From positions 599,501-663,500 of the forward strand of contig NC_092603.1 of NCBI RefSeq assembly GCF_047663525.1: 64,000 bases of DNA, read 5' to 3'. Source of the DNA: Anas platyrhynchos. Its lineage: Eukaryota; Chordata; Aves; Anseriformes; Anatidae. Under the pieces are notes generated by a model. The model was not told the DNA's origin, did not search any database, and saw only the letters and a list, made by a program, of their open reading frames with translations. This document shows, piece after piece, positions 13,229-43,525 of this stretch (the first letter of the stretch is position 1; every line of letters begins with the position of its first letter). A program made the position numbers and the translations under genes.

Positions 13229-13955
13229 GTGAGCACTGGGAGGGCACTGGGGGGATACTGGGAGCACCGGGAGGGCACTGGGGGGATACTGGGAGGACTG
13301 GGAGGGCACTGGGGGGATACTGGGAGGACTGGGAGGGCACTGGGGGGATACTGGGAGGACTGGGAGGGTACTGGGGGGATACTGGGAGCACTGGGAGGGT
13401 ACTGAGGGGATACTGGGAGGACTGGGAGGGCACTGGGGGGATACTGGGAGCACTGGGAGGGTACTGGGGGGATACTGGGAGGACTGGGAGGGTACTGAGG
13501 GGATACTGGGAGGACTGGGAGGGCACTGGGGGGATACTGGGAGCACTGGGAGGGTACTGGGGGATACTGGGAGCACCGGGAGGGCACTGGGGGGATACTG
13601 GGAGGACTGGGAGGGTACTGGGGGGATACTGGGAGGACTGGGAGGGCACTGGGGGGATACTGGGAGGACTGGGAGGGCACTGGGGGGATACTGGGAGGAC
13701 TAGGAGGGTACTGGGGGGATACTGGGAGCACTGGGAGGGCACTGGGGGGATACTGGGAGGACTGGGAGGGTACTGGGGGGATACTGGGAGCACTGGGAGG
13801 GCACTGGGGGGATACTGGGAGGACTGGGAGGGCACTGGGGGGATACTGGGAGGACTGGGAGGGTACTGGGGGGATACTGGGAGCACTGGGAGGGCACTGG
13901 GGGATACTGGGAGGGCACTGGGGGGATACTGGGAGGACTGGGAGGCGAGGCTGGT
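13229..13955. repeat. 31-bp ACTGGGAGGGCACTGGGG array
   Basis: About 23 units of about 31 bp combining ACTGGGAGGG(C/T)ACTGGGGGGATACTGGGAG(G/CA). Units differ mainly by AGGACT versus AGCACT and CACT versus TACT. It fills the putative first intron of the + S100 copy. Confidence 0.95.
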
Positions 13956-13957
13956 GA

Positions 13958-17000
<3,043 letters not shown>

Positions 17001-17079
17001 GAGAGACCCCCCCGGGAGGGGGGGGAGTGCAGAGAGAGCGGAGCCTGGGGGGGGCCTGGAGAAGTTGGGGGGTCGTTGG

Positions 17080-18345
17080 GGGTGGCCAAGGTTGGGTTGG
17101 GTGGGGTTTGGGGTCTTGGAGAAGACAAAATTGGGGATGTTCCACCATTGGAGATGCTCAAAGTTGGGTTGGGTGGGGTTTGGGGTTTTGGAGAAGACAA
17201 AATTGGGGATGTTCCATCATTGGAGTTGGCCAAGGTTGGGTTGGGTGGGGTTTTGGGTGGGGGGGGTGATGAAATTTGGGAGGTTCCATCATTGAGATGA
17301 TCAAATTTGGGTTGGGTGGGATTTGGGGTCTTGGAGAAGACAAAATTGGGGATATTCCATCATTGGAGTTGGCCAAGGTTGGGTTGGGTGGGGTTTTGGG
17401 TGCTGGAGAAGACAAAATTGGGGATGTTCCACCATTGGAGATGATCAAAGTTGGGTTGGGTGGGATTTGGGGTGTGGGGGGTGATGGAATTTGGGAGGTT
17501 CCATCATTGGAGATCACCAAAGATGGGTTGGGTGGGGTTTTGGGTGCTGGAGAAGACAAAATTTGGGATGTTCCATCATTGGAGATGATCAAGGTTGGGT
17601 TGGATGAAGTTTTGGGTGCTGGAGAAGATGAAATTTTGGACGTCCCGTCATTGGAGATCACCAAAATTGGGTTGGGTGGGGTTTGGGGTCTTGGAGAAGA
17701 CAAAATTGGGGATGTTCCACCATTGGAGATGATCAAAGTTGGGTTGGGTGGGATTTGGGGTGTGGGGGGTGATGGAATTTGGGAGGTTCCATCATTGGAG
17801 ATCACCAAAGTTGGGTTGGGTGGGGTTTTGGGTGCTGGAGAAGACAAAATTTGGGATGTTCCATCATTGGGGTTGACCAAAATTGGGTTGGGTGGGGTTT
17901 TGGGTGGGGGGGGTGATGAAATTTGGGAGGTTCCATCATTGAGATGATCAAAGTTGGGTTGGGTGGGGTTTGGGGTCTTGGAGAAGACAAAATTGGGGAC
18001 GTCCCGTCATTGGAGGTGGCCAAGGTTGGGTTGGACGGGGTTTTGGGTGTGGGAGAAGATGAAATTGGGGCCGTCCTGTCATTGGAGATCACTAAAGTTG
18101 GGTTGGACGGGGTTTTGGGGTCTTGGAGAAGACAAAATTTGGGATGTTCCATCATTGGAGTTGGCCAAGGTTGGGTTGGATGAAGTTTAGGGTGTGGGGG
18201 GTGATGAAATTTGGGATGTCCCATCATTGGAGATGCTCAAAGTTGGGTTGGGTGGGGTTTGGGGTCTTGGAGAAGACAAAATTGGGGCCGTCCCGTCATT
18301 GGAGATGACCAAATTTGGGTTCTTCTGGTTTTGGGGTGCTGGAGG
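17080..18345. repeat. 72-bp minisatellite, + orientation
   Basis: About 17 units, mostly 72 bp, containing GTTGGGTTGGGTGGGGTTT, GGAGAAGACAAAATTGGGGA and TTCCATCATTGGAGATG. Since 72 is a multiple of 3, 24-residue repeats (core [18 protein letters not shown]) run unbroken. It starts about 80 bp after the S100 stop and is mirrored at 19.40-20.78 kb. Confidence 0.95.
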
Positions 18346-18655
18346 AGACGCAGTTGGGGCTGTCCCATCGCTGGTGTCGCGCCTGGAGCTGGGGGGGACC
18401 TGGGGGGGGGGTCGGATCCCAGCGACTCCGAGTGGCCCCCATGGGTGAGGGGTCCCCATTGTGCCCCCTCCCCATTTTGGAGGGGGGGGGACGTGTCCCC
18501 ATTTCCTCCCCGTTCCCCGTTTTGGCTTCATTTTCCCAATTTCCCCCGTTTTTCCCCCATTTTCTCCATTCCCCCGTTTTTTCCCCCATTCCCCTGTTTT
18601 TTCTTCATTCTCCCCATTTTCTCCCCATTCCCTGTTTTGGCTTAATTCTCCCAGT
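18346..18655. other. Short single-copy spacer
   Basis: Diverged end of the 72-bp array, then a CCCCATTTTC/TTTTCCCCCATT-rich tract. No gene is seen. Confidence 0.5.
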
Positions 18656-19230
18656 TCTGAACCCTGTGGGGCTGGACCCTATGGGGCAAAACCCTATGGG
18701 GCAGAACCCTATGGGGCAGGACCCTATGGGGCAAAACCCTATGGGGCAGAACCCTATGGGGCAGGACCCTATGGGGCAAAACCCTATGGGACAGAACCCT
18801 ATGGGGCAGAAACCTATGGGGCAGAACCCTATGGGACAGAACCCTATGGGGCAGGACCCTATGGGGCAGAACCCTATGGGGCAAAACCCTATGGGGCAAA
18901 ACCCTATGGGGCAGAACCCTATGGGGCAGGACCCTATGGGGCAAAACCCTATGGGGCAGAACCCTATGGGGCAGAAACCTATGGGGCAGAACCCTATGGG
19001 GCAGGACCCTATGGGACAGAACCCTATGGGGCAGAACCCTATGGGACAGAACCCTATGGGGCAAAACCCTATGGGGCAGAACCCTATGGGGCAGGACCCT
19101 ATGGGGCAGAACCCTATGGGACAGAACCCTATGGGGCAGGACCCTATGGGGCAGGACCCTATGGGACAGGACCCTATGGGGCAGGACCCTATGGGGCAGG
19201 ACCCTATGGGGCAGAACCCTATGGGGCATC
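18655..19230. repeat. 15-bp CCCTATGGGGCAGAA array
   Basis: About 38 near-perfect 15-bp units. Variation is confined almost entirely to positions after CA (GAA, GGA, AAA) and GGGGC/GGGAC. All six frames are open (PYGAE, QNPMG and HRVLP repeats). It sits at the axis between the two S100 inverted arms. Confidence 0.97.
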
Positions 19231-19235
19231 CCCCC

Positions 19236-19395
19236 ACGTGCCCCCCAGTCTCCCCCCAGGCTCCGCTCTCTCTGCACTCCCCCCTCCCGGGGGTCTCTCT
19301 TTATTGCTCGCCCCCCAGCCCCCCAGCGGCGGGGGGGCCGTCGGGGGGCAGGGGGGGCCCCGGGGGGGCGTCGGCGCCGTAGTGGCGCCCACCCA
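19236..19395 (-). pseudogene. Orphan S100 3' end, fragment A
   Basis: Read on -, it begins abruptly inside the exon 4 RHYG codons and continues through the Pro/Gly tail (7-C run), stop, AATAAA and downstream flank. It is fused upstream to the 72-bp array. The break is the same as in the fragment at 20.15-20.31 kb, so both come from one duplication unit. Confidence 0.9.
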
Positions 19396-20150
19396 ACCCA
19401 ACTTTGACCATCTCCAATGATGGAACATCCCAAATTTCATCACCTCCCATACCCAAAACTTCTTCCAACCCAATTTTGGTCAACCCCAATGATGGAACAT
19501 CCCCAATTTTGTCTTCCCCCACACCCCAAACCCCACCCAACCCAACTTTGACCATCTTCAATGACGGAACCTCCCAAATTTCATCACCTCCCATACCCAA
19601 AACCCCACCCAACCCAACCTTGGCCAACTCCAATGATGGAATATCCCCAATTTTGTCTTCTCCAAGACCCCAAAACCCCGTCCAACCCAACTTTCGTGAT
19701 CTCCAATGACGGGACGTCCCCAATTTTGTCTTCCCCCCCACCCAAAACCCCACCCAACCCAACTTTGAGCATCTCCAATGATGGAACATCCCCAATTTGT
19801 CTTCCCCCACACCCCAAAACCCCACCCAACCCAACTTTGACCATCTCCAATGACGAAACCTCCCAAATTTCATCACCCCCCCCCACCCAAAACCCCGTCC
19901 AACCCAACCTTGGCCACCTCCAATGACGGGACATCCCCAATTTTGTCTTCTCCAAGACCCCAAACCCCACCCAACCCATCTTTGGTGATCTCCAATAATG
20001 GAACCTCCCAAATTCCATCACCCCCCACACCCCAAATCCCACCCAACCCAACTTTGAGCATCTCCAATGGTGGAACATCCCAAATTTTGTCTTCTCCAAG
20101 ACCCCAAACCCCACCCAACCCAACCTTGGCCACCCCCAATGACCCCCCAA
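19395..20150. repeat. 72-bp minisatellite, - orientation, block 1
   Basis: About ten units of the same 72-bp repeat as at 17.08-18.35 kb, in reverse complement. Higher divergence between units than within the 15-bp array. Confidence 0.93.
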
Positions 20151-20312
20151 CTTCTCCAGGCCCCCCCCAGGCTCCGCTCTCTCTGCACTCCCCCCCCTCC
20201 CGGGGGTCTCTCTTTATTGCTCGCCCCCCAGCCCCCCAGTGGCGGGGGGGGGGCCGTCGGGGGGCAGAGGGGGCCCCGGGGGGGCGTCGGCGCCGTAGTG
20301 GCGCCCACCCAA
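20150..20312 (-). pseudogene. Orphan S100 3' end, fragment B
   Basis: Same content and same left break as fragment A (starts within RHYG, ends past AATAAA), with a 10-C run in the tail. Confidence 0.9.
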
Positions 20313-20780
20313 CCCAACTTTGACCATCTCCAATGACGGGACATCCCCAATTTTGTCTTCCCCCACACCCAAAACCCCACCCAACCCAACTTTGACCATC
20401 TCCAATGATGGAATATCCCCAATTTTGTCTTCTCCAAGACCCAAAACCCTGTCCAACCCAATTTTGGTGATCTCCAATTACGGGACGTCCAAAATTTCAT
20501 CTTCTCCAGCACCCAAAACTTCATCCAACCCAACCTTGGCCAACTCCAATGATGGAAAATCCCCAATTTTGTCTTCTCCAAGACCCCAAATCCCACCCAA
20601 CCCAACTTTGGTGATCTCCAATGATGGAACCTCCCAAATTCCATCACCCCCCACACCCCAAATCCCACCCAACCCAACTTTGAGCATCTCCAATGGTGGA
20701 ACATCCCAAATTTTGTCTTCTCCAAGACCCCAAACCCCACCCAACCCAACCTTGGCCACCCCCAACGACCCCCCAACTTC
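20312..20780. repeat. 72-bp minisatellite, - orientation, block 2
   Basis: About six units between orphan fragment B and the 3' end of the complete - S100 copy. Confidence 0.93.
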
Positions 20781-20841
20781 TCCAGGCCCCCCCCAGGCTC
20801 CGCTCTCTCTGCACTCCCCCCCCTCCCGGGGGGGTCTCTCT

Positions 20842-25300
<4,459 letters not shown>

Positions 25301-29049: not shown

Positions 29050-29620
29050 GCTGAAATTTTGGGGACTGGGGGGGGGATATTTTTTTGGGGGGGAGAATAT
29101 TTTTTTGGGGGGGGAATTTTTTTGGGGGGTGGATATTTTTTTGGGGGGTGGATATTTTTTTTGTTTTTTTTTTGGGGGGGGATATTTTTTTGGGAGGGGA
29201 TTTTTTTTGGGGGGGGGGATATTTTTTTTTTGGGGGGAGAATATTTTTTTGGGGGAGGGATTTTTTGGGGGGACATTTTTTTGGGGGGGGGATATTTTTG
29301 GGGGGGGACATTTTTTGGGGAAGGATATTTTTTTGGGGGGGGGATTTTTTTTGTGTTTTTTTTTTGGGGGGGTATTTTTTTGGGGGGGGAATATTTTTTT
29401 TGGGTGTGATTTTTTTTTGGGGGGGTGTATTTTTTGGGGGGGATATTTTTTTGGGGGGAGATAATTTTTTTCGAGGGGGGAAATATTTTTGGGGGGGGAG
29501 ATTTTTTGGGGGGGGGAGATTTTTTTTGGGGGGGGCGATATTTTTTTCTTGAGGGGGGATATTTTTTTGGGGATGGATATTTTTTTGGGGGGGCGAATAT
29601 TTTTTTGGTTTTTTTTTTTG
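29050..29620. repeat. GGGGGGATATTTTTTT array
   Basis: About 25-30 units of 15-20 bp with G runs of 6-10 and T runs of 6-9. On - it follows directly from the last recognisable GTF2H4 codons and keeps a frame open coding for PPKKYPPPKK repeats. Confidence 0.95.
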
Positions 29621-29624
29621 GGGG

Positions 29625-29751
29625 TCTGACGTCGGGGGCTGCTCCGGGGGTCACCACCATCAGCGGGGGCTCCTCGAAATCAGCACCCCCAGGGCCCGCG
29701 CCTGGTCCCCGCAGCACTTCTACTCATCTGCGACAGGAACTGTTGCAGCAC
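29625..29751 (-). CDS. GTF2H4: GTF2H4 last recognised exon
   Basis: Acceptor TTTTTGCCAG. Matches to p52 occur in three successive frames: QQFLSQ, then QARALGVLI, then FEEPPLMVVTP...DVR. The conserved basic tail after DVR is absent; the frame runs on into the GGGGGGATATTTTTTT array. Confidence 0.8.
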
Positions 29752-32700
29752 CTGGCAAAAATCAAAATAATTGGGGGGCAAAAATAAAAAAAATTGGGGG
29801 AAAAATAAAAAATTGGAAAAACAAAAAATTGGGGGGCAAAAAAATAAATAAAAAATTGGGAGGGGGGGAAAAAACAAAAAAATAAATTGGGGGGCGAAAA
29901 AATAAATAAATTGGGGGGCAAAAAAATAAAAAAAGGGGGGCAAAAAAACAATAAAATGGGGGGAATAAAAAAATAAAAAAAATGGGGGGCAAAAAAATGA
30001 AAAAAGGGGGACAAAAAAATTGGGGGGCAAAAAAATAAAAAAAGGGGGGGAAAATAAAAAAATTGGGGGGAAAAAAATAAAAAAAAGGGGGGAAAAATAA
30101 AAAAAATTGGGGGGCAAAAAATAAAAAAAGGGGGCAAAAATAAAAAATAGGGGGGCAAAAAAAATAAAAAATTGGGGGGCAAAAATAAAAAAATTGGGGG
30201 CAAAAAATAAAAAAATTGGGGGCAAAAAAAATAAAATGGGGGGCAAAAAAAAAAGGGGGGCAAAAAAAATAAATGGGGGGCAAAAAAATAAAAAAAATTG
30301 GGGGCAAAAATAAAACAATTGGGGGCAAAAAATAAAAAAAGGGGGGAGAAAATTGGGGGGAAAAAAGAAAAGGGGGGAGAAAAATTGGGGGGAAAAGGAA
30401 AAAAAGTTGGGGGGCAAAAAATAAAAAAAAGGGGGGAGAAAATGGGGGGATAAAAATTGGGGTGGGGGGAAATAAAAAAATTGGGGGGAATGGGGGTAAA
30501 AAAAATTGGGGGGCAAAATTGGGGGCAAAAAAATAAAAATGGGGGGAACAAAAAAACTGGGGGACTGGGGGGAAAACAAAAAAAATTGGGGGGCAAAACA
30601 ATAAAAAAAAAATGGGGGAAAAAAAAACAAAAAATTGGGGGGTTTGGGACCCCCGAGGATTTTGGGACCCCCCAGGATTTTGAGGACGCCCTGGAGATTT
30701 TGGGGACCCCCGAAGGCATTGGGGACACCCTTGGGGGTTGGAGACCCTTTGGGGGAGTTGGGGACCCCCTAGGATTTTGGGGACCCCCAGGATTTTGGGG
30801 ACCCCCCAGAATTTTGGGGACCCCCCGAGGGCATTGGGGACAATCCCAGGGATGTTGGAGACCCCTTGGGGGGTTTGGGGACCCCTAGGATTTTGGGGAC
30901 CCCCCAGGATTTTGAGGACCCCTGGGAACTTGTAAATCCCCTGGGGATTTTGGGGACCCCCAGAATTTTGGGACCCCCCGAAGGCATTGGGGACACCTCT
31001 GGGGGGTTGGAGACCCCTTGGGGGTTGGGGACCCCCAGGATTTTGGGACCCCCCAGGATTTTGGGGACCCCCAGGATTCTGGGAGTTCCTGGGGATTTTG
31101 GGGACCCCCAAAATTTTGGGGCCCCCCCCACCCTCGGAGAAGCGCAGTCCGGTCCGCTCCAGCTCCCAGAGGCTAATCTGGTTCGGTGATGGTGGTAATA
31201 ATTGGGGTCTTGGGGCACAAATGCTGGTGGGGTCCCCAAAACGGGGCCCCCTTTTTGGCGCTATTTGGGCCAGCCAGGACTGGCTCTGGCCATGATGGGG
31301 TGCGCCCTGGGTGCGGAGGAAGTGGATGATCTGGATGATGGGGGTTCTGAGTCCCCCCATACATCCTATGGGGACCCCCAAAACTTCAGGATCCTCTTAA
31401 GGGATCCTAATACCCCAAAAACCCCCCAAAATCCCTTGAAAACTCTCCCTGAGACCCCCCAAATCTCCTAGAGTCCCCAAATATCCCCCAAATTCCCCAT
31501 ATATCCTCGAGGACACCCAAAATCCCCCCAGGACCCCCCAAACCCCCCAAAATGCCCCCCAGGACCCCCCACCTACCTGGTCGGCCGCCATCCCATCGCC
31601 AAGCCATCTCTGCACCCCCAAGTCTCTAATAGATCCCCCAAACTCTCTAAACCCCCACAGTCCCACCCATATATCCCCAATAGGACCCCTAAACCCCCGA
31701 ACTGTCCTAGAATTCTCCAAAATCTCTCCAGGACCCCCCATCCCACCCCCGGCCATGGATCCATTTCTCCAAGACCATTTGCACCCCAAAACCCCCCAAA
31801 TACCCCCCTAAAACCCCCCAGTACCCCCATATACCCCCGATACCCCCCCAACCCCCATATACCCCCATACCTACCCAGATCCCCCAAACCCCCAAATCCC
31901 CCCACCCCACCTGGTTGGCCGCTATCCCATCTGCTTATGGCCACCTCAACCCCCAAAACCCCCCAAATCCCCCAATACCCCCCAATGCTCCCCCAAATCC
32001 CCCATATACCCCCCCAAAATCCCCCATATACCCCTACAGCACCCCAAAATCCCCCCAAAAACCCCCCAAAATTCCCCCAACCCCACCTGGTCGGCCGCTA
32101 CCTCATTGCTGATGGCCACTGCACCCAGTCTCTGAAATCCCAGTCCCCCCAAGTTTCCCCCATATACCCCCCAAACCCCCCAAAATCCCCCCCAGGCACC
32201 CCAAAAAACCCCCCAAAATCCCCCAAAATTCCCCCACCACCTGGCCGCCGCTGAATCCATTGCTGATGGCCCCAATCTACCCCAAGTCCTCCTAAATCCC
32301 CCCACAACCCCCCAAATCCCCTCAAATCCCCCCAAATCCCCATATACCCCTATAGGGCACACTCAAAAAATCCCCAAAATCCCCCAAAATTCCCCCACCC
32401 CACCTGGTTGGCCGTGATCCCATTGCTGATGGCTAACTGCACCCCAAAACCCCCCCAACCCCCAAAACCCCCCAAAACCCCCAAATACCCCCCAAATCCC
32501 CCATATACCCCTATAGGACACCCCAAAATCCCCCAAAATCCCCCATCCACCTGTCGGCCGTGATCCTATTGCCATGGCCACCTGGGATCCCCAAAACCCC
32601 CCGAATCCCCCAAAACCCCCAAAATCCCCCATATACCCCCAAGTCCCCAAATCCCCCCCAGGATCCCCAAAATCCCCCAAAACCCCCAAAATCCCCCCAA

Positions 32701-35700
32701 CCCCACCTGGTTGGCGTGATTGACTGCTGATGGCCACCTACCCAAAACCCCCCCGAAATCCCCCCATACCCCACCAAATCCCTCCATACCCGCCCAAATT
32801 CCCAGATACCCCCACGGGGATCCCAAATCCCCCCCAGACCCCCCCCAAATTCCCCCAAATCTCCCCACAGGCACCCCCCACCCCACCTGGTCGGCCGCTA
32901 ATCCCATTCCCAAAGACCATTTGCACCCCCAAAACCCCCCCAAATCCCCCAAGTCCCCCCAAGTCCCCATATACCTCCCAAATCCCCATAGACCCCCAGA
33001 GGACACCCAAAATCCCCCAAAACTCCCCCCACCCCACCTGGTCAGCCGTGATCCCATTGCTCATGGTCCGCCTGCACCCCAAACCCCCCAAAACCCCCCA
33101 AGTCCCCCCAAAATCCCCCATATACCCCCAAAGCCCCCAAAATCCCCCCCAGTACCCCCAAAATACCCCCAAATCGCCCCCAGCTCCCTGACCCCACCTG
33201 TCGGCCGCTAACTCCCCGTCTGCGATGGCCGCCTGGACGCTGTCCTCGTCCACCTGCGCCACCACCAACTCCGGGAAGCGAGAGGAGCTCCGAAAATAGG
33301 GCGATGAGGGCGATCTGCAGCTCCGTATTTATAGGGTGGGGGGCACCAAAAAACGGGTGAGAAAACCTAAAACCACGCTCTCCAGGGGTTCGGGGTTTCG
33401 GGGGTACCGGTGTAGGCGTAGATGCGGGAGCCGGTCTCCACCAAAACGAAGCCGCGGGTTCGGGGTCCGGGGGGTTCTCAGGGACCCCCCCGAGGCCAGG
33501 GCGATGGCCAGGCGGGTGGGGAGAGCGCGGCATCTGCGCTTTTTTGGGGGGAAACGGGGGCGTTAATGGGGTGGGGCGAGGAAATGGGACAGGACGAGGA
33601 AACTGGGACGAGGAAATGGGGATGGGGAAATGGGGATGGGGAAATGGGATGAGTATTGGGGTGAGGCCGGGGATAAACGGGACAAGAGTTGGGGATGGGG
33701 ACAAGGAAATGGGGACAAGGAAATAATGGGACGAGGAAACAGGGACGAGGAAATGGGGACGAGGAAAATAATGGGACAAGGAAATGGGGACAAGGAAATG
33801 GGATGGGAAATAGGGACAAGAAAAGGGATGGGACAAGGAAATGGGGACAGGGAAATGGGACAGAAATGGGGACGAGGAAATGGGGACGAGGAAATGGGGA
33901 CGAGGAAATGGGACGGAAATGGGTACGAGGAAACGGGACCAAGGAAACGGGGACGAGGAAATGGGATGGGAGGAAATAGGGACAAGGAACAGGGACAGAA
34001 ATGGGGACGAGGAAATAGGGACAAGGAAATGGGATGGGAGGAAATAGGGACAAGGAAATAGGGACAGAAATGGGGACGAGGAAAAGTGGGGAAATGGGGA
34101 CGAGGAAATGGGGACGAGGAAATGGGGATGAGGAAATGGGGACAAGATTTGGGATGGGGACAAGGAAATGGGACAAGGAAAGGATGGGGATGAGGAATGG
34201 GACGAAGGGAATGGGGACTAGATTTGGGATGGGGACAAGATTTGGATGGGGACAAGGAAAGGGATTGGGGACAAGGAAATGGGGACGGGGGAAATGGGGA
34301 CGGGGAATGGGACAGAAATGGGACGAGGAAATGGGATGGGAATGGGACGGGAAATGGGACAGAAATGGGATGGGAATGGGGACGAGGAAATGGGACGAGG
34401 AAATGGGACAGAAATGGGACGAGGAAATGGGGACGGGGAAATGGGACGAGGAAAATGGGACAGAAATGGGGACGGGGAATGGGAACAGAAATGGGACGAG
34501 GAAATGGGGACGAGGAAATGGGGACGAGGAAATGGGGACAGAAATGGGACGGGGAAATGGGCACGGGGAAATGGGGACAAGGAAATGGGGACGAGGAAAT
34601 GGGACAGAGATTTGGGATGGGGACAAGGAAATGGGGACGAGGAAATGGGACCAGATTTGGGATGGGGACAAAGATTTGGGATGGGGACAAGGAAAGGGGA
34701 ATTGGGGACGAGGAAATGGGACGGGGAAATGGGGACGGGGGAAATGGGATAAAATGGGGACGAGGAAATGGGGACGAGGAAAAGGGGATAAAATGGGACG
34801 GGGAAATGGGGACGGGAAAATGGGACGGGGAATGGGATGGGGAGGAACAGGGACAAGGAAATAGGGACGAGGAAATAGGGATAAGAAATGGGACGAGGAA
34901 ATAGGGACAAGGAAATGGGACGAGGAAATGGGGATGAGGAAATAGAATGGGATGGGGACGAGGAAATGGGGAAATGGGGACGAGGAAATGGGGACAAGGA
35001 AATGGGGACAATTGGGATGGGGACAAGGAAATGGGGCCGGGATTGGGGTCGGGATCGGAATTGGGGCCGGGATCGGGATAGGGTTGGGATCGGGTTTGGG
35101 TCGGGGTCGGGATTGGGGTCGGGATTGGGGTCGGGGTCGGGATTGGGATCGGGGTCGGGATTGGGTTGGGTCGGGATTGGGGTCGGGTCAGGATTGGGAT
35201 TGGGGTCAGGATTGGGGTCGGGATTGGGATCGGGTCAGGATTGGGGTCAGGATTGGGGTCGGGGCTGGGATTTGGGGTCGGGATTGGGATCGGGATCAGG
35301 GTCGGGATCGGGATCGGATTAGGGTCGGGATCGGGTCGGGGATTGGGGTCGGGATCGGGGTCGGGATCGGGTCGGGATCGGGGTCAGGGTCCCGGGCCCC
35401 TCCCCACCTTCCTCCTGGAACACGAGCCCGAACCCGCGCAGGTGCCGCAGGAAGGCTGAGCAGCGACTCGCCCACCCCTCCACCGAGAAGTCCTGGCGGC
35501 ACCAGTTCCTCCACTCCTAGTTCCTCCCAGTTCCACCCACCAGCCCCACACCCCCCCGACCCCCCCAGACCCACCCAGTAAGCCCCAGCCCCCCCCCAGC
35601 TCTCCAGTTTCCCCCATTCCCCCACATCCCCCCGCTCAGACTCTCCCAAACTTCACCCTAGTCCTTCCACTCTCCAATTCTCCACCTCCTTTCCTTGACT

Positions 35701-38700
35701 TCCCCACTAGTTTCCATTCTCCAGTATTCTACCTCTCCACTCTCCCTATTCTCCATTCCCCTGACTTCCCAATTCTTCCATTAAATTCTCCAATTCTCCT
35801 AATTCTCCAATTCTCCCTGAGTAGCCCCCACTAATTCTCTGAATCCCCCCAACCCCCCCCAACCCCCCATCTCCCCCATTCCCCCATAGCCCCCTACTCC
35901 CCCCAACCCCCCCAAATCCCCCCAAACCCTCCTCCCAAACCCCAAACCCCCCCCAAACCCCCCCCCAAATCCTAAATCCCCCCCAAACCCCAAATCCCCC
36001 CCTAATACCCTAATTCCCCCCAAATTCCCCCCAACTCCCCCCTACTCCCCCCAACTCCCCCCATCCCCCCAACCCCCCAAACACCCCTAATCCCCCCAAC
36101 CCCAACCCCCCAAACCCCCAAATCCCCCCCAGCACCCTACTCCCCCCCCTCCCCTCATTCCCCCCCTAAATCCCTCATCTCCCCCAAACCCCCCCAAATC
36201 CCCCCATCTCCCCCCAACCTCCTCCCCAAACCCCAAATCCCCCCCAAACCCCAAATCCCCCCCAAAAAAAACCCCAAATCCCCCCCAAACCTTCCCCAGC
36301 GTGGAGCAGCTGAGCCCCAAGAGGAACGCCAGGATCCCCACCAGGTCCATCCCGCGAGCCTTTAGGGGGGGGGGTCCCCAAAAAAATTAGGATCCCCCAA
36401 AAATCTAGGGGCCGAAAATAACAGGGGGGGGGCGGTTTTAGGGTCGGGGACCCCCCCTCACCTTTGGGAGCCCCGCAGCAATTGCAGGTCTAAATGACAG
36501 AGCTGGGGCGGGGTGTCAGGAGCAGGAATTGGGAAACCCGCATAGGTGAGACCCCATCCCAGCCTCCCCCCTCGCTGCGGGGGGGTCCCAAAATCAGGGG
36601 ATCCCTTAAATAGGGGAGGTCCCCCCTGAACGGCCCCGGGGGTTCGGGGGTGGGGGAGGTGCCAAAACCCAGCAGGAGGCTAAAATCCCACCAAAATCCA
36701 CTGAAAATCCCATTAAAACCCTATCAAAATTCCACCAAAATCCCCCAAAAATCCCAAATGCCCCCGGGACCCCCCCAATTCCCCCAAACCCCAATATCAT
36801 CCAAGTTCCTCACTTACCCCAAAAATCCCACTAAAACCCCAATAACCCCCAGGACCCCCCCAACCCCCCCCAATACCCCCCCCAAGTCCCACCCCCAACC
36901 CAAAAATGCCCCCCCCATCCCCAAAATGCCCCCCAGGGCTAGCCCAATGCCCCCAACTCCCCAATACTCCCCCCAACCCCCCCATAGCCCCACCCCAACC
37001 CCCCCAATGTCCCCCCCAAAACCCCCCATCACCCCCCCCCCAACCCCTCCCAACCCCAAAAACGCCCCCCAACCCCAAAACCGCCCCCCCCCACCCCAAA
37101 CAGCCCCCAAGGGCTCCCCCAATAACTCTTAAACTCCCCCAAATCCCCCCAAACCCTCCATAGTCCCCCAAAACCCCCTGTAGCCCCCCGAACCCCCCAA
37201 AATCCCATTAGACCCCCCCCAATACCCCCCCAACCCCCAAAATTCCCCCCCCACCCCAAAATTCCCCCATATAAAAATCTCCTTCGCTCTCCCCCAAGCG
37301 TCCAATTGCCCCCCCAAAATCCCCCCAAAACCCCCAAATCCCCCCCCAAACCCCCCTCAGCCCCCCCCCCAACCCAAAATGCCCCCCAAACCCCCAAAAT
37401 CGCCCCCCCAACCCCCAAAAATCCCCCCCATATAAAAATTTCTCTTCTGGGGGCTTCTGAGTTCCCCCAATAACCCCCAAAATCCCTCCAAAAACCCTGT
37501 AACCCGCCCAACAAAAACCCCTAAGCCCCCCCCCTAAATCCCAAAATGCCCCCCAAATCCCAAAATGCTCCCCAACCCCCAAAATCCCCCCATATAAAAA
37601 ATCCCCCCCCCTGGGCTTCCCATTTCTATACCCCCCAAAATCCCCCAAAACCCCTGTAAACCCTCCCAAAATCCCTGAGCCCCTCAAAATGCCCAAAATG
37701 CTCCAAAATCCCCAAAATCGCCCCCCTCATCCTAAATTCCCCCCCATATAAAAAATCCCCTTGGGGTCTCCCCAGTCCCCCAATCCCCCCCAAACCCTCC
37801 CCCAAATCCCCCCAGAACCCCTGTAACCCCTCCCAGAACCCCCAACCCCCCCCAAATCCCCCCAAAATGCCCCCCAGACCCCCAAATCCCCCCCACCCTA
37901 AATTCCCCCCCCCATATAAAAACATCCCCCCTTGGGTCTCCCAAACCCCCAAATGCCCCCCAAACCTCTCCAAAATCCCCCAAAACCCCTAAACCCCCCC
38001 AAAACCCCTAAACCCCTCAAATCCCCAAAATGCCCCCAAAACCCCAAAAATCCCCCCCCCAAAATGTCCCCCCACCTCTCTCTCCACCAGCCCCGCCTGC
38101 ACCAGGAGCTGCGCCAGGTCCTGGCTTGACGGCGGGCTCCTGCGGCTCCATGAAGTGCAGGATCACCTGGGGGGGCCAAAAACCCCAAAACACCCCCAAA
38201 AACACCCCAAAAACACCCAACCCCCCCCCCCAAAAAACACCCCAAAACCCCCAAAAAAACACCCCAAAAACACCCCCAAAGTCCCCCAAAAACACCCCCA
38301 AATACCCCCAAAACACCCCCCAACCCCCCAAAAACACCTCCAAAAACACCCCCAAAAACACCCCCAAAGCCCCCCAACCACCCCCAACCCCCCAATTCTC
38401 CCTCATTGCCCTCTATCTCCTCAATTATCCTCTATCCCTTCAATTACCCCCATCCTTTTCAATTATCCTCTATCCCCCCAATATCCCCCCCATTCCCCCC
38501 TCATCCCCCAACCCCCCCCAACCCCCCAACCACCCCCCACCCCCCGAATCCCCCCACTGCCCCCCACACCCCCTCACTGCCCCCCCACCCTCTCAATCAC
38601 CCCCCCCCACCCCCCCAATTGCCCCCCCCACATCCCCCCTCACTGCCCTCTACCCCCCCACCCCCCCACACCCCCCAATCACCCCCCCCTCTACCCCCTC

Positions 38701-41700
38701 AACCTCCCCCTGATCGCCCCTGACCCCCCCCATCAACCCCCTCATCCCCCCACATTTACCCCCCTAGCCCCCCCAAACCCCCCCTTACCCCCCCAAATCC
38801 CCCCCACATCCCCCAACCCCCCCACACCCCCCAATCCCCCCAACCCCCTCACCCTCCTAAATCCCCCCACTACGGCCCCCCAATCACCCCCTCATCCTCT
38901 AATCGCCCTGATCCTCTCCATCACCCCCCATCCCCCCACATTGCCCCCAATCCCCCCTTATCCCCCAAATCTCTCCAATCCCCCCACCACCCCCACCCCC
39001 CCAAATCCCCCCTTATTGCCCCCCCACCCCCCTTAATTACCCCTCCACCCCCCCAATTGCCCCCCACCCCCTCAATTACCCCCCAATTGCCCCCCTCTAC
39101 CTCCCACCGCTCCTCGGCACCATCCAGGCGGGCACTGCGCGCGCGTGCCTTGTTCGGCCCCAGCCGGCTCCCCCCTTCCCACCACGCCGCCCCCCCGCCG
39201 ACCCCCCAAAATTTTTTTTAGGGGGGGGGGGGCAAGGGGGAGAATCCCCCCCCCAGCCCCCGCATTCCCCGCCCCCCCCGCCCCGGTTCCAGCCTCTCTT
39301 AAGGGGGTTCTTTTGCCCCCCCCCCCAAAATCAGTGTCCAAATGGGGCGCCCCCTCTCCAAAATCGCCCGCTACCCCCAATTGCCCCCCTAACCCCCAAA
39401 TTGCCCCCCTGACCCCCAATTACCCCCAATTACCCCCCATCCCCCCATCCCCCCAATTGCCCCCGAGTCCCCCCAAATCTCCCCTTATCCCCCAATCCTC
39501 CCCAATTGCCCCCCAAATCCTTCAATTGCCCCCATCCCCTCAATTGCCCCCTCAGCCCCCACCCCCAACCCCCCCAAACCTCCCTCCATGCCCCCAGTCC
39601 CCCCCAACCCCCCTCTACCCCCTTTGATCACCCGCCCCCACCCCCCCACCCGCCCCCCCCACCCCTCAATCGCCCCCACCCCCCCAACCACTCCCCAACT
39701 CCCCAACCCCCCCACCCCCCCCAACCCCCCTCCATTCTCCATCCCCCCACCCCCCCCAATCCCCCCTCACCCCCCTTTATGCCCCCCCACCCCCTAATCG
39801 CCCCCCACCCCCTAATCGCCCCCCACCCCCCCCACCCCCCCAACCCCCCCAACCACCCCAAACCCCCCACATCCCCCAAATCCCCCCCACCCCCCCAACC
39901 CCCCAACCCCCCCAAATCCCCCCCTTCCCCCAACCCCCCAAACCCCCCCACATCCCCCTCACATCCCCCCAAATGACCCCCAAATCCGCCCCACACCCCC
40001 CTAATCACCCCCCAACCCCCCAAATCCCCCCTCATCCCCCCCAAATCCCTCCCTCACCCCCCCACCCCCCCAAATCCCCCCTCATGCCCCCCCACCCCCC
40101 CCAAATCACCCCCCTCCAAAATCCACCCCCCATCCCCCAACCACCTCCCCTCATCCCCCCAAATCCCCCCCTCTCCCCCCAAACCCCCCCCTCTACCCCC
40201 AAAACCCCCCCCTCACCCCCCAAATCCCCCCCCAACCCCCCCCACGCCCCTGACCCCCCAAACTACCCCCCCCCCCCCCACCCCCCACCCCCCCCAACCA
40301 CCCCCCAACCCCCCCCAAATCCCCCCCACCCCCCCAAACCCCCCCACACCCCAAATCCCCCTTTATCCCCCCTTACCCCCCCCCAAATCCCCCCAAACCC
40401 CCCCTTATGCCCCCCCACCCCCCAAATCACCCCCCCAAAATCCACCCCCCCAACCCCCTAACCACCCCCCCCAACCCCCCCAATATCCCCCCCCCAATCC
40501 CCCTTTATCCCCCTTACCCCCCTCATCCCCCCAAAACCCCCCTCACCCCCCTCATGCCCCCAACTCCTGACCACCCCCCCCACCCCCCCAACCACCCCCA
40601 AAAACTCACCCCCAGCAGCGCCACCCGCAGGTTCCGTGTTGGGAAGCGGTGCAGGGCGACCCCGGCAGCCCCCCGGCAGGGTGGGGGTGCCAGAGGCGCA
40701 GCGCCACAGCAGCTCCCTGTGGCCGCCTGTCCTGCCAGCTTGGGGCACTGAACAACTCTTGAGTATTTATAACCCCCCCTAATTCATAAGGATATTTTGT
40801 AGTATCCCCGAACCCAAATTTGTGTTGGGGTTTGCCCCCAAATCCAAGACCCCCCCAAAATCCTTAGACCCCCCCCCAAACAGATGGGGCCCCCCCCCCC
40901 AAATATTGGGACCCCCCCTAATTTTGGGACCCCCCAAATATATATATGGGACCCCCCCACCCCAGGGGGAGACCCCCCAAATGGGACACCCCCAAATATT
41001 GGGACCCCCGAATATATGGGGCCACCCTAAATATATGGGACCCCCCAAAAAATCCCACAGGGAGCCCCCAATATTGGGATGCCCCCAAATTGAGGGTACC
41101 CCCAAAATATGGGACCCCCCAAATCCCATAGGGACCCCTGAATTCCACAGGGAGCCCCCAATATTGGGGACGTCCCCAAATACCCCAAATCCCCCCAAGA
41201 CCCCAAAATCCCAGGACCCCTCAAACCCCCCCCAACCCCCCCCCAACCCCCTCAAACCCCCCCCAAACCCCCCCCCAACCCCCCCCCAGCCCCCCCAAAT
41301 CCCCCCCAACCCCCTCCAGCCCCCCCAAATCCCCCTCCACCCCCCCAGCCCCCCCAAACCCCCAAATCCCCCCCCAGCCCCCCAATTCCCCCCAACCCCC
41401 CCAAACCCCCCAAATCCCCCCAGGGCCCCCCAACCCCCCCAAATCCCCCCCCAGACCCCCTCAACCCCCCTCAATCCCCCCCAGGACCCCCCAAATCCCC
41501 CCCGCCCCCCCCCCAGGCCCCCCCCACGCACTTGCTGTGCTCCTTCTTCACCCAGGGCCCCCTACGGCCGCCTGCACCCCCCCAACCCCCTCAGACCCCC
41601 CCCCAACCCCCCCAATCCCCCCAAATCCCCCCCAGCCCCCCAAATCCCCCCCAATACCCCCCTCTACCCCCCCATCCCCCCCCAGTCCCCCAAGTCCCCC

Positions 41701-43525
41701 CCAGCCCCCCGAATTCCCCCCATTCCCCCCCAGCCCCTCAAGCCCCCCTAAATTCCCCCATTCCCCCCAGTCCCCCTCAAATCCCCCCCAGCCCCCCAAA
41801 CCCCCCAAACCCCCCCAGGACCCCCCGAACCCCCCAAATCCCCCAAATCCCCCCAGCCCCCCCAAATCCCCCCAGGACCCCCCTGAGCTCCCCCACGCAC
41901 CGCTGTGCTCCTTCTTCACCCAGAGCCCCACGGCCGCCTGGACCCCCCCCCCAACCCCCCAAATCCCCCCCACCCCCCCCCAACCCCCCCCCCACCCCCC
42001 CCACCCCCCCACACCCCCCCACACCCCCCCACCCCTCTATTCCTCCACCCCCCAATTCCTCTATTCCCCCCACCCCCCACCCCCCCACCCCCCACACCCC
42101 CCCACCCCCCCCACCCCCCCACCCCCCCACCCCCCCCAAACCCCCCCACCACCCCTCTATCCCCCCAAATCCTCTAAATCCCCCTAATCCCTCTAAATCT
42201 CTTAAACTCCCCCAACCTACCCCCCAAGTCCCCCCAAATCCCCCCTAAACCCCCCCCAAATCCCCCTGACCCCCCTCAAACCCCCCAGGCCCCCCCCAAT
42301 CCCCCCCAAATCCCCCAGCCCCCCCCCGATCCCCCAATACCCCCTGACCCCCCCCAAACCCCCCTAAACTCCCCCAATCCCTCAAACCCCTCAAACTCCC
42401 CCAGGCACCCCCCAAACCCCCCCAATTCCCCCAATTCCCCCCAGCACCCCCAACCCCCCCCAAATCCCCCAATTCTCCCCAGGCCCCCCCCCAGCCCCTC
42501 ACTTGCTGGTGCCCTCCTCCACCCCAGAGCCCCACGGCCGCTTGGGCAGGGCTGCTCCAGGAAGAGCATCCGCATCACCCCCGCCTGCGCCAGCCCCGGC
42601 AGCTCCCTGCGGACCCCCGCAAGCGTCAGGGGGGGGCACAACACCGGCAGCCCCCCTTAAGAAAAACCCGCCCCTGAAACCCTTAATGCAAAGTTTTAGG
42701 TTTTGGGGAAAAAAACCAGGTTTTATTTTTTTATTCTATTCCATTTTTTCCATTTTTTTTGATTCCATTCCATTCCATTCCATTCGGGTTGATTCCATTC
42801 CGTTCCATTCCTTTCTATTTCTTGCATTTTTTCCATTCTATTCCATTCCATTCCGTTCCATTCTGTTCCGTTCCATTTTGTGTCTCCATTCCATTCCATT
42901 CCATTCCATTCCATTTTTCCATTTCATTACATTCCATTCCATTCCATTCCATTCCATTCCATTCCATTCCATTTTTTCCATTCCATTCCATTCCATTCCA
43001 TTTCGTTTCGTTCTATTCCATTCCCTCCATTCCACTTCCACTCCGGATTTCTTCTATTTCTTTTCTTTTCTCTCCATTCCATTCCATTCCATTCCATTCC
43101 ATTCCATTCCATTTTTTCCCATTCCATTCGATTCCACTCGTGTTTCTTTCCATTCCACACCATTCCATTTCTTTGCATTCCATTCCAATTCTTTCCATTC
43201 CATTCTATTCCGTTTCCACTGCATTCCATTCCATTCTGGCCATTCCATTTGCGATTTCAATCTTTTTCATCATCATTTCAATTACTTTCATTATTTTTAT
43301 TTTTCTATTTTTAAAAGTTTTATTTTTTATTTTTTTTATTTTTTCTGTTTTTTTATTTTTTTTAGGGGTTTTTTTATTTATTTATTTTTGATGGGGGGAA
43401 TATTATTCAAGACGGCCAGGCAGGTGGCGGGTGTCCGTACAGGCGGTCCAGGACGGGGGGCTGAGCCCCCGCAGGAACTCGTGGAGGTCTGCACTGCAGC
43501 TGCTCCTGCAGCCGGGCCGCTTCAT
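29625..43525 (-). CDS. GTF2H4: TFIIH core subunit 4 (p52)
   Basis: p52 anchors and stimulates the XPB helicase within TFIIH, acting in RNA polymerase II promoter opening and nucleotide excision repair in the nucleus. Twelve exon blocks appear in family order on -: 43,525-43,409; 42,606-42,503; 40,716-40,610; 39,167-39,101; 38,166-38,076; 36,574-36,462; 36,359-36,291; 35,492-35,408; 33,539-33,408; 33,326-33,198; 31,330-31,132; 29,751-29,625. Landmarks: FLRGLSP, VMRMLFLEQ, NLRVALLG, AEERWE, RGMDLVGIL, GFGLVFQ, GFVLVET, IIHFLRT, ISLWELER and LMVVTP. Most introns have standard boundaries, but many exons need one or two frame changes to follow the p52 sequence and the C-terminal tail is missing. 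Either a decaying copy or heavy indel error. Introns are almost pure minisatellite. Confidence 0.92.
29762..30640. repeat. AAAAATTGGGGGGCAAAAATAA array
   Basis: Units of about 15-22 bp, A-rich and G-rich on +, filling GTF2H4 intron 11 next to the last exon. Confidence 0.95.
30640..31125. repeat. GGGGACCCCCAGGATTTT array
   Basis: Units of about 18-22 bp (GACCCCCCAGGATTTTGGG), with composite blocks containing GGCATTGGGGACA. It fills the intron part next to exon 11. Confidence 0.93.
31132..31330 (-). CDS. GTF2H4: GTF2H4 exon 11
   Basis: Acceptor CATCCAG and donor GAGG|GTGGGG. Starts IIHFLRT and ends SLWELERTGLRFSE, with TPIITTIT between, all matching p52. About 80 bp in the middle do not fit and may be a tiny intron or an insertion. 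At least two frame changes. Confidence 0.85.
31420..33190 (-). repeat. Array of GTF2H4 exon 10 ends with splice donors
   Basis: Units of about 150-340 bp, each with C-rich CCCCAAAATC filler plus a copy of the exon 10 3' end and donor. On -, copies of codons like AISNGITADQ followed by GTGGGG (GTAGGT in the last) occur near 33.04, 32.89, 32.71, 32.55, 32.40, 32.24, 32.09, 31.91 and 31.57 kb: nine extra copies. Several resemble the mammalian p52 sequence (IASGITAQQ) more closely than the genuine exon end does. Confidence 0.9.
33198..33326 (-). CDS. GTF2H4: GTF2H4 exon 10
   Basis: ELQIALIALFSELLS, then in another frame FPELVVAQVDEDSVQ and AIADGELAAD, ending CAG|GTGGGG. The acceptor is unclear; TATAAATACGGAG precedes the first matching codons. 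One frame change after LLS. Confidence 0.87.
33408..33539 (-). CDS. GTF2H4: GTF2H4 exon 9
   Basis: Acceptor CCAAAAAAG and donor CACCG|GTACCC. Codes for PTRLAIALASGG, then GFVLVETGSRIYAYT after a frame change in a C-rich segment. Confidence 0.87.
33560..35030. repeat. GGGGACGAGGAAAT array
   Basis: About 100 units of 13-14 bp (GGGGACAAGGAAAT, GGGACGAGGAAAT). The GGAA core recurs throughout. It fills most of GTF2H4 intron 8. Confidence 0.97.
35030..35398. repeat. GGGATTGGGGTCGG array
   Basis: Units of 6-12 bp (GGGATTGGGGTC, GGGATCGGGTC) that join the previous array and stop about 10 bp from the donor of exon 8. Confidence 0.95.
35408..35492 (-). CDS. GTF2H4: GTF2H4 exon 8
   Basis: Acceptor GCCGCCAG, donor GGAAG|GTGGGG. 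DFSVEG..., FLRHLRGFGLVFQEE. A base missing after EG and a base added before FLR shift the middle (GESLLS in the alternative frame) and restore it. Confidence 0.88.
35500..36290. repeat. C-rich intron 7 sequence
   Basis: TTCTCCATTCTCC-type pyrimidine sequence (35.5-35.82 kb), then CCCCCAAACCCCAAATCCCC repeats up to exon 7. Confidence 0.85.
36291..36359 (-). CDS. GTF2H4: GTF2H4 exon 7
   Basis: RGMDLVGILAFLLGLS...STLGK followed by GTTTGG. Close match to the p52 RGMDLVEILSFLF segment, without a frame break. Confidence 0.92.
36462..36574 (-). CDS. GTF2H4: GTF2H4 exon 6
   Basis: Acceptor CCCCGCAG, donor CAAAG|GTGAGG. TYAGF, then QFLLL (frame +1), then DTPPQL (original frame): a compensated pair of indels. 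The end DLQLLRG is diverged. Confidence 0.78.
36640..38070. repeat. CCCCAAAATC intron 5 array with 160-bp CCATATAAAAA blocks
   Basis: C-rich repeats throughout. At 37,265, 37,428, 37,588, 37,742 and 37,912 a CCCATATAAAAA plus T/C-rich segment recurs every about 160 bp, a higher-order unit. Confidence 0.9.
38076..38166 (-). CDS. GTF2H4: GTF2H4 exon 5
   Basis: Acceptor CCCCCCAG, donor AGAGAG|GTGGGG. VILHFMEPQEPAV, then QDLAQLLVQAGLVE after a one-base insertion. Confidence 0.9.
38170..39095. repeat. CCCCAAAAACACC / CCCCCAA array (intron 4)
   Basis: CCCCAAAAACAC units near exon 5, then poly-C with CAATCACC and TCATC variants. Confidence 0.9.
39101..39167 (-). CDS. GTF2H4: GTF2H4 exon 4
   Basis: RLGPNKARARSARLDGAEERWE then GTAGAG, matching the p52 LGPDKHAR...EERWE segment in a single frame. 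Poor acceptor (GGGGGGAG). Confidence 0.85.
39180..40600. repeat. CCCCCCAATTGCC / CCCCCAACCCC array (intron 3)
   Basis: Poly-C broken by CAATTG, CAAATC and CTTTATC. One single-copy GC patch at about 39,190-39,330 without recognised coding content. Confidence 0.9.
40610..40716 (-). CDS. GTF2H4: GTF2H4 exon 3
   Basis: Donor CTGGGG|GTGAGT. LRLWH, LPGG and GVALHRFPTRNLRVALLG lie in three frames in the p52 order. The 5' end is uncertain; several AG acceptors lie between 40,716 and 40,750. Confidence 0.85.
40800..41170. repeat. GGGACCCCCCAAATAT array
   Basis: Units of about 20-25 bp with CCAAATATTGGGACCCCC and CCCATAGGGA(C/G)CCCC. Each is partly self-complementary (GGG...CCC). Confidence 0.9.
41532..41576 (-). 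pseudogene. GTF2H4: GTF2H4 exon 2 3'-half, extra copy b
   Basis: VQAAVGG-PWVKKEHSK followed by donor AGCAA|GTGCGT. Only the 3' half of the exon is present and there is no acceptor. Confidence 0.85.
41901..41943 (-). pseudogene. GTF2H4: GTF2H4 exon 2 3'-half, extra copy a
   Basis: VQAAVGLWVKKEHS followed by GTGCGT. This copy keeps the p52 LWVKKEFSK segment better than the full exon at 42.5 kb does, so it may be the functional end or the older copy. Confidence 0.85.
42503..42606 (-). CDS. GTF2H4: GTF2H4 exon 2
   Basis: Acceptor GTCCGCAG, donor AGCAA|GTGAGG. ELPGLAQAGVMRMLFLEQ matches p52 well; the end after QAAVGLW is diverged and frame-shifted. Confidence 0.92.
42745..43245. repeat. (ATTCC)n pentanucleotide array
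   Basis: CCATTCCATTCC with TTTTTTCC and TTTCC interruptions. Complement of the (GGAAT)n array at 5.84 kb. Confidence 0.95.
43250..43400. other. T-rich spacer next to exon 1
   Basis: TTTTATTTTT and ATTTATTTATTT sequence abuts the last codons of GTF2H4 exon 1 with no visible splice donor. Confidence 0.6.
43409..43525 (-). CDS. GTF2H4: GTF2H4 exon 1 (start)
   Basis: ATG at 43,525-43,523, just after a poly-A run on + (43,541-43,563). Matches: LQCR, then LHEFLRGLSP, then VLDRLYGHP, then ATCLAV, each in a different frame. No GT donor where the family has one; AT-rich sequence follows at once. Confidence 0.82.

Follow-up and report, generated by a model that had tools for sequence, protein, structure and literature searches.

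A protein-coding gene of the duck, Anas platyrhynchos, contains within one of its introns ten imperfect tandem copies of the end of the preceding exon, which run through the exon border into the start of the intron, nine of them retaining a GT donor. The gene is GTF2H4, which encodes the p52 subunit of TFIIH, and the array is very probably a case of exon stuttering, a form of exon-border repetition already described in the chicken. That the unit is repeated, that it arose locally and that it resembles both the exon end and p52 are direct observations; how the DNA was rearranged, and that the array serves no dedicated function, are our inferences.

The gene lies on the minus strand, at about 43.5 to 29.6 kb of the window, the term used here for the whole stretch of 64,000 nucleotides that was analyzed (contig NC_092603.1, positions 599,501 to 663,500). 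Its earlier assignment to GTF2H4 is borne out by tblastn and by a frameshift-tolerant alignment in which human p52 aligns exon by exon. PDB chains named GTF2H4 and TFB2 are matched by a composite peptide made up of sequence from the source exon, the consensus of the copies and the exon that follows; since this peptide was designed to look like p52, its match carries no independent weight. A Pfam scan of two of the three minus-strand frames of 27-42 kb gave no match, and a PDB search of the third gave only noise. Pfam Tfb2 found no match over the whole genome, an uninformative result, 14 control genomes being equally silent.

Organization and Local Origin of the Array

The source of the array is the exon at 33198..33320 (minus strand), which corresponds to about residues 321-363 of p52 and was placed both by the frameshift-tolerant alignment to human p52 and by tblastn. 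Its last base is 33198, and its final ∼40-41 nt, with the donor, are what the copies have diverged from. The host intron (31331..33197, minus strand), delimited by the p52 alignment, is 1867 nt long and 48.7% G on the sense strand; the next exon (31281..31330, minus strand; IIHFLRT...), placed in the same way, has the acceptor ACCCCCATCATCCAG. The copies occupy 31577..33078 (minus strand) with a period of 147-180 bp, and their last bases are at 33038, 32887, 32707, 32551, 32404, 32241, 32087, 31911, 31749, and 31577. The original prediction, which was made from the sequence alone, was right that the array exists and gave the position of the exon end and its donor correctly, but spoke of nine further copies; the intron holds ten, that at 31749 having been missed.

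The same prediction described the repeated piece as the exon end plus donor, and both are indeed included, but in a whole-unit alignment the unit also extends ∼115 bp into the G-rich intron, a part that is likewise alignable between units, and has a mean length of ∼162 bp (147-180). TRF gives periods of 161 and 151 for parts of the array, and the ten copies, each with an exon part of ∼40 nt, span ∼1.66 kb. The source segment lies no more than 1 base from the exon border, and its copies run through the junction into the intron. The filler between exon-like segments had been called C-rich, which is correct for the plus strand, but on the sense (minus) strand it is G-rich; all 26 G4-type motifs of the host intron are on the sense strand. 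Many units start with GTGCAG or a similar sequence, where the source exon has GTCCAG, and the sequence upstream of these GTGCAG starts is G-rich. A reading in which GTGCAG is the acceptor of a 33-nt mini-exon is unlikely, there being no pyrimidine tract ahead of it. As predicted, no copies of the acceptor side of the source exon were found, and the start of the next exon (31330) has none in the host intron.

Although the G-rich filler resembles many places on several other contigs, the exon-derived part of the unit is strictly local, both in a search with the consensus core and among the matches listed for a longer probe. Allowing up to 3 mismatches, a search of the 1.26-Gb genome with a 22-base consensus core gave 11 sites (1 for a reversed control pattern); only two of these had 2 mismatches or fewer, and both are inside the array. 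Among the matches listed for an exon-plus-intron probe, those reaching more than 1 base into the exon were confined to the GTF2H4 locus.

The array is known from one assembly. Its surroundings are filled with tandem repeats, and the GC content there ranges from 0.31 to 0.72 in 2-kb steps. Genome size, contig number and this repeat content suggest that the contig may be a dot chromosome. Another minisatellite (33592-35041; a 39-bp period among others, by TRF) fills an upstream GTF2H4 intron, and the exon-side scan described below detected no exon-end copies in it. Farther away in the window, a large inverted duplication that itself contains tandem repeats occupies 13237-24960, and each of its arms carries an intact 63-residue EF-hand-like frame (16769-16957 on the plus strand and 20885-21073 on the minus strand). 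These frames we take to be S100-like; the Pfam EF-hand matches for the frame at 16769-16957 are below the curated cut-offs.

How Closely the Copies Match the Exon End and p52

The similarity of the array to the exon end is above chance. Seven overlapping 60-base segments of the intron score at least 24 against the last 42 nt of the exon, whereas 200 dinucleotide shuffles subjected to the same test gave on average 0.01 such segments and never more than 2, and all eight control 42-nt stretches from other exon parts gave none. Individually, four of the ten copies (32887, 32551, 32087, and 31911) score at least 24 against the exon end, the best shuffle in this series reaching 24 and the maximum in a second run (60 shuffles) being 26; the remaining six score 10 to 20 and are not individually above shuffles. 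In a forced global alignment of the exonic part, mean ungapped identity is 41% between exon and copies and 57% among the copies. The published screen for stuttering uses blastn-short with a match of at least 20 nt and a bit score of at least 42.1, which is a screening threshold and not a biological definition. A BLAST screen of exon against intron in the style of Hron et al. returned no match of at least 20 nt, and the best bit score for the source exon, 24.3, is not above that of its own shuffles (95% level, 24.3; maximum, 30.2).

The exon sides of the gene were scanned in 26 tests, 13 on the donor side and 13 on the acceptor side. Among the donor-side tests, only the exon ending at 33198 is above shuffles in both count and score, and none of the 13 acceptor-side tests is above shuffles; the exon starting at about 39202 gave 7 segments scoring at least 24 on its acceptor side, but the shuffle average there was 22.

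The copies also match the protein. Translated in the phase of the donor, the consensus of all ten is VQVAISNGITADQ at each of three gap settings, although a first copy alignment gave GWKWAISNGITADQ instead, so the initial residues depend on the alignment. The former peptide is identical to residues 351-363 of human p52 at 9 of 13 positions, with a score of 41; nucleotide shuffles reached at most 22 against this segment (18000 shuffles) and 33 anywhere in p52 (2000 shuffles). The exon end itself is p52-like at 7 of the 13 positions. The prediction that several copies read AISNGITANQ or ADQ was generous: AISNGITANQ is found in one copy (32404) and SNGITADQ in one (33038), but the others match only partially.

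A Second Stuttered Exon End

The same gene contains a second, smaller set of copies. A probe at 41940, which was above shuffles on score only, scored 60 at a place about 350 bp farther on (shuffle maximum, 25), and inspection of this signal led to the exon at 42503..42606 (minus strand; LEQP..AAVGLW..., donor GTGAGG), the end of which has two copies in the next intron. The first (41901..41945, minus strand) reads VQAAVGLWVKKEHS, and the second (41532..41575, minus strand) reads QAAVG in one frame and WVKKEHS in another; both have the donor GTGCGTGG. The two are 92.7% identical over 41 nt and read WVKKEHS, close to the human WVKKEFS, whereas the exon itself needs three frames and ends VEEGTS where the copies read VKKEHS. 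The best BLAST bit score for this exon is 38.2, which is above its own shuffles (30.2) but below the 42.1 cut-off. A GTGCAG/GTCCAG junction with a GCGGCC-like stretch after it marks the beginning of both stuttered sets (33068-33080 and 41566-41590, minus strand).

State of the GTF2H4 Locus

In both sets the copies appear nearer to human p52 than the exon does, which is odd for a conserved exon and points to consensus errors or to decay of this copy of the gene. The number of frameshifts needed to align p52 to the locus (29604-43502, minus strand) is 22 when the penalty is lenient and falls to 11, 5, and 4 as it is made stricter, with loss of the last exon under the stricter penalties; no stops are encountered. 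By comparison, six tubulin loci of the same genome, one of them shortened by a masked stretch, took no frameshifts over 2,389 aligned residues. From these alignments the locus is either poorly polished or decaying, and we favor poor polishing, because p52 is essential and in-frame stops are absent.

The alternative of a decaying pseudogene, in which the functional GTF2H4 would be elsewhere and the array would be a relic, is improbable, although of the rival readings it fares best and is compatible with stuttering. It would account for the frameshifts, for the lower similarity of the exon end than of the copy consensus to p52, and for the three frames and altered ending of the second exon. On the other hand, besides lacking in-frame stops, the gene lies near two valyl-tRNA synthetase-like exons (plus strand, about 49.6 and 51.6 kb) with a clean frame and splice-like flanks. 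We presume these to belong to VARS2, from the GTF2H4-VARS2 neighborhood of the human genome; within the stretches scanned they have no copies at a score of at least 30.

That poor polishing of G-rich sequence has inflated the copy number or the divergence of the array, so that it is an artifact of assembly, is more doubtful still. The frameshifts without stops, set against the clean tubulin loci, speak for this reading, but the ten copies differ from one another and are variably spaced, unlike one stretch assembled repeatedly, and their consensus keeps the p52 reading frame.

Donor Sites and Possible Effects on Splicing

Each copy had been credited with a GTGGGG or GTAGGT donor of its own. This is correct for seven, six with CAG|GTGGGG and one with CAG|GTAGGT, but one copy has CAG|GTGGAT, one has CAG|GTGGTG, and that at 31749 is without GT. 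When the 117 GT sites of the junction and intron were ranked with a frequency matrix, the true donor and seven of the copies took the top eight places. The copies are candidate spare 5′ splice sites, and what their sequences indicate is a potential for competition. The true exon end (33198) is probably the one used in most splicing events; runs of G after a donor, such as follow the true one here, are expected to favor it. If splicing leaked to a later donor, the result would be a lengthened exon. Read in phase 0, the extensions to all ten copies contain one stop or more, but in the frame that gives the p52-like assembled exon end the extensions to the first two copies are open, so a poisoning effect on the transcript is not certain.

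The retained GT dinucleotides, the ranking of the donors and the phase-0 stops might suggest a functional cassette of decoy donors, regulated use of which would lower or alter the output of p52, but the open extensions to the first two copies, a donor-proximal part that is not reliably more conserved than the rest (permutation p of 0.21, 0.22, and 0.03 at three gap settings), and the treatment of the published class as an instability (Hron et al. 2026, PMC12954441) make such a cassette the least credible of the alternatives. It is similarly improbable that the array is maintained as a store of decoy 5′ splice sites, which would tune p52/TFIIH output through lengthened exons in a manner dependent on repeat number, its copies preserving an older exon end than the exon itself.

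Relation to Known Systems and Probable Origin

The original prediction held that no described satellite class has an exon-donor junction as its unit, which is incorrect, since both exon stuttering in the chicken (PMC12954441) and a human CBS VNTR (PMC2630376) precede the present case. Hron et al. (2026, PMC12954441) describe stuttering in 236 introns of 115 genes in connection with the chicken dot chromosomes, on which 190 of the 236 introns lie; imperfect tandem copies of one side of an exon, together with the splice donor (or acceptor) found there, run through the adjacent intron. The exon part is 20-187 bp (median 36), the copies number 1-44 (median 4), and the span is 112-23,555 bp (median 1,751). 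The GTF2H4 array is within all three ranges, near the medians in length of the exon part and span and above the median in copy number, but its copies are more diverged and it fails the BLAST cut-off, as does the second set (24.3 and 38.2 versus 42.1 bits). The main text of Hron et al. does not name GTF2H4 (PMC12954441), and no literature was found on GTF2H4 with chicken and microchromosome.

The human CBS VNTR, c.1444_1467+7 with 16-21 units of 31 bp (PMC2630376), is similar in that, by its notation, the unit crosses the exon end and donor, so that donors would be multiplied. It differs in its uniform units (by notation, 24 exonic and 7 intronic nucleotides), in being polymorphic in people and in lacking a long G-rich filler; the GTF2H4 unit, at about 162 bp (147-180), is neither short nor uniform. 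A proposed route of intron gain, tandem duplication of exon segments containing AGGT (PMC4974935), also gives tandem copies of exon sequence with splice signals, but there a new intron arises within coding sequence, whereas in GTF2H4 an intron that was already there becomes longer, and the units seem to bring in no acceptor preceded by a pyrimidine tract. The GTF2H4 array is a further example of known exon stuttering, and no new repeat class is established.

As to its origin, a segment composed of the last ∼41 nt of the exon, the donor and the adjoining ∼115 bp of G-rich intron would have been tandemly multiplied inside the intron, and the units would then have diverged. The multiplication may have occurred by slippage, unequal exchange or gene conversion at the G-rich, G4-prone DNA of what is probably an avian microchromosome. 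Hron et al. speculate similarly about the chicken, invoking either meiotic gene conversion or difficulties that GC-rich, G4-prone DNA poses for replication or repair (PMC12954441). A stepwise recent duplication was rejected, copies farther apart in the array being no less similar than close ones (Spearman 0.06, p 0.67). The array is most likely a by-product of local repeat expansion that left spare donors behind, because its exon part, copy number and span fit published stuttering and because the 26 G4-type motifs are all on one strand.

The present case adds a core transcription and DNA-repair gene to the hosts of stuttering, unless GTF2H4 is in the supplementary list of Hron et al. That it is too diverged for the published screen suggests that the class is undercounted, and the array offers a natural setting in which to test how donors of nearly the same sequence are selected by the splicing machinery.
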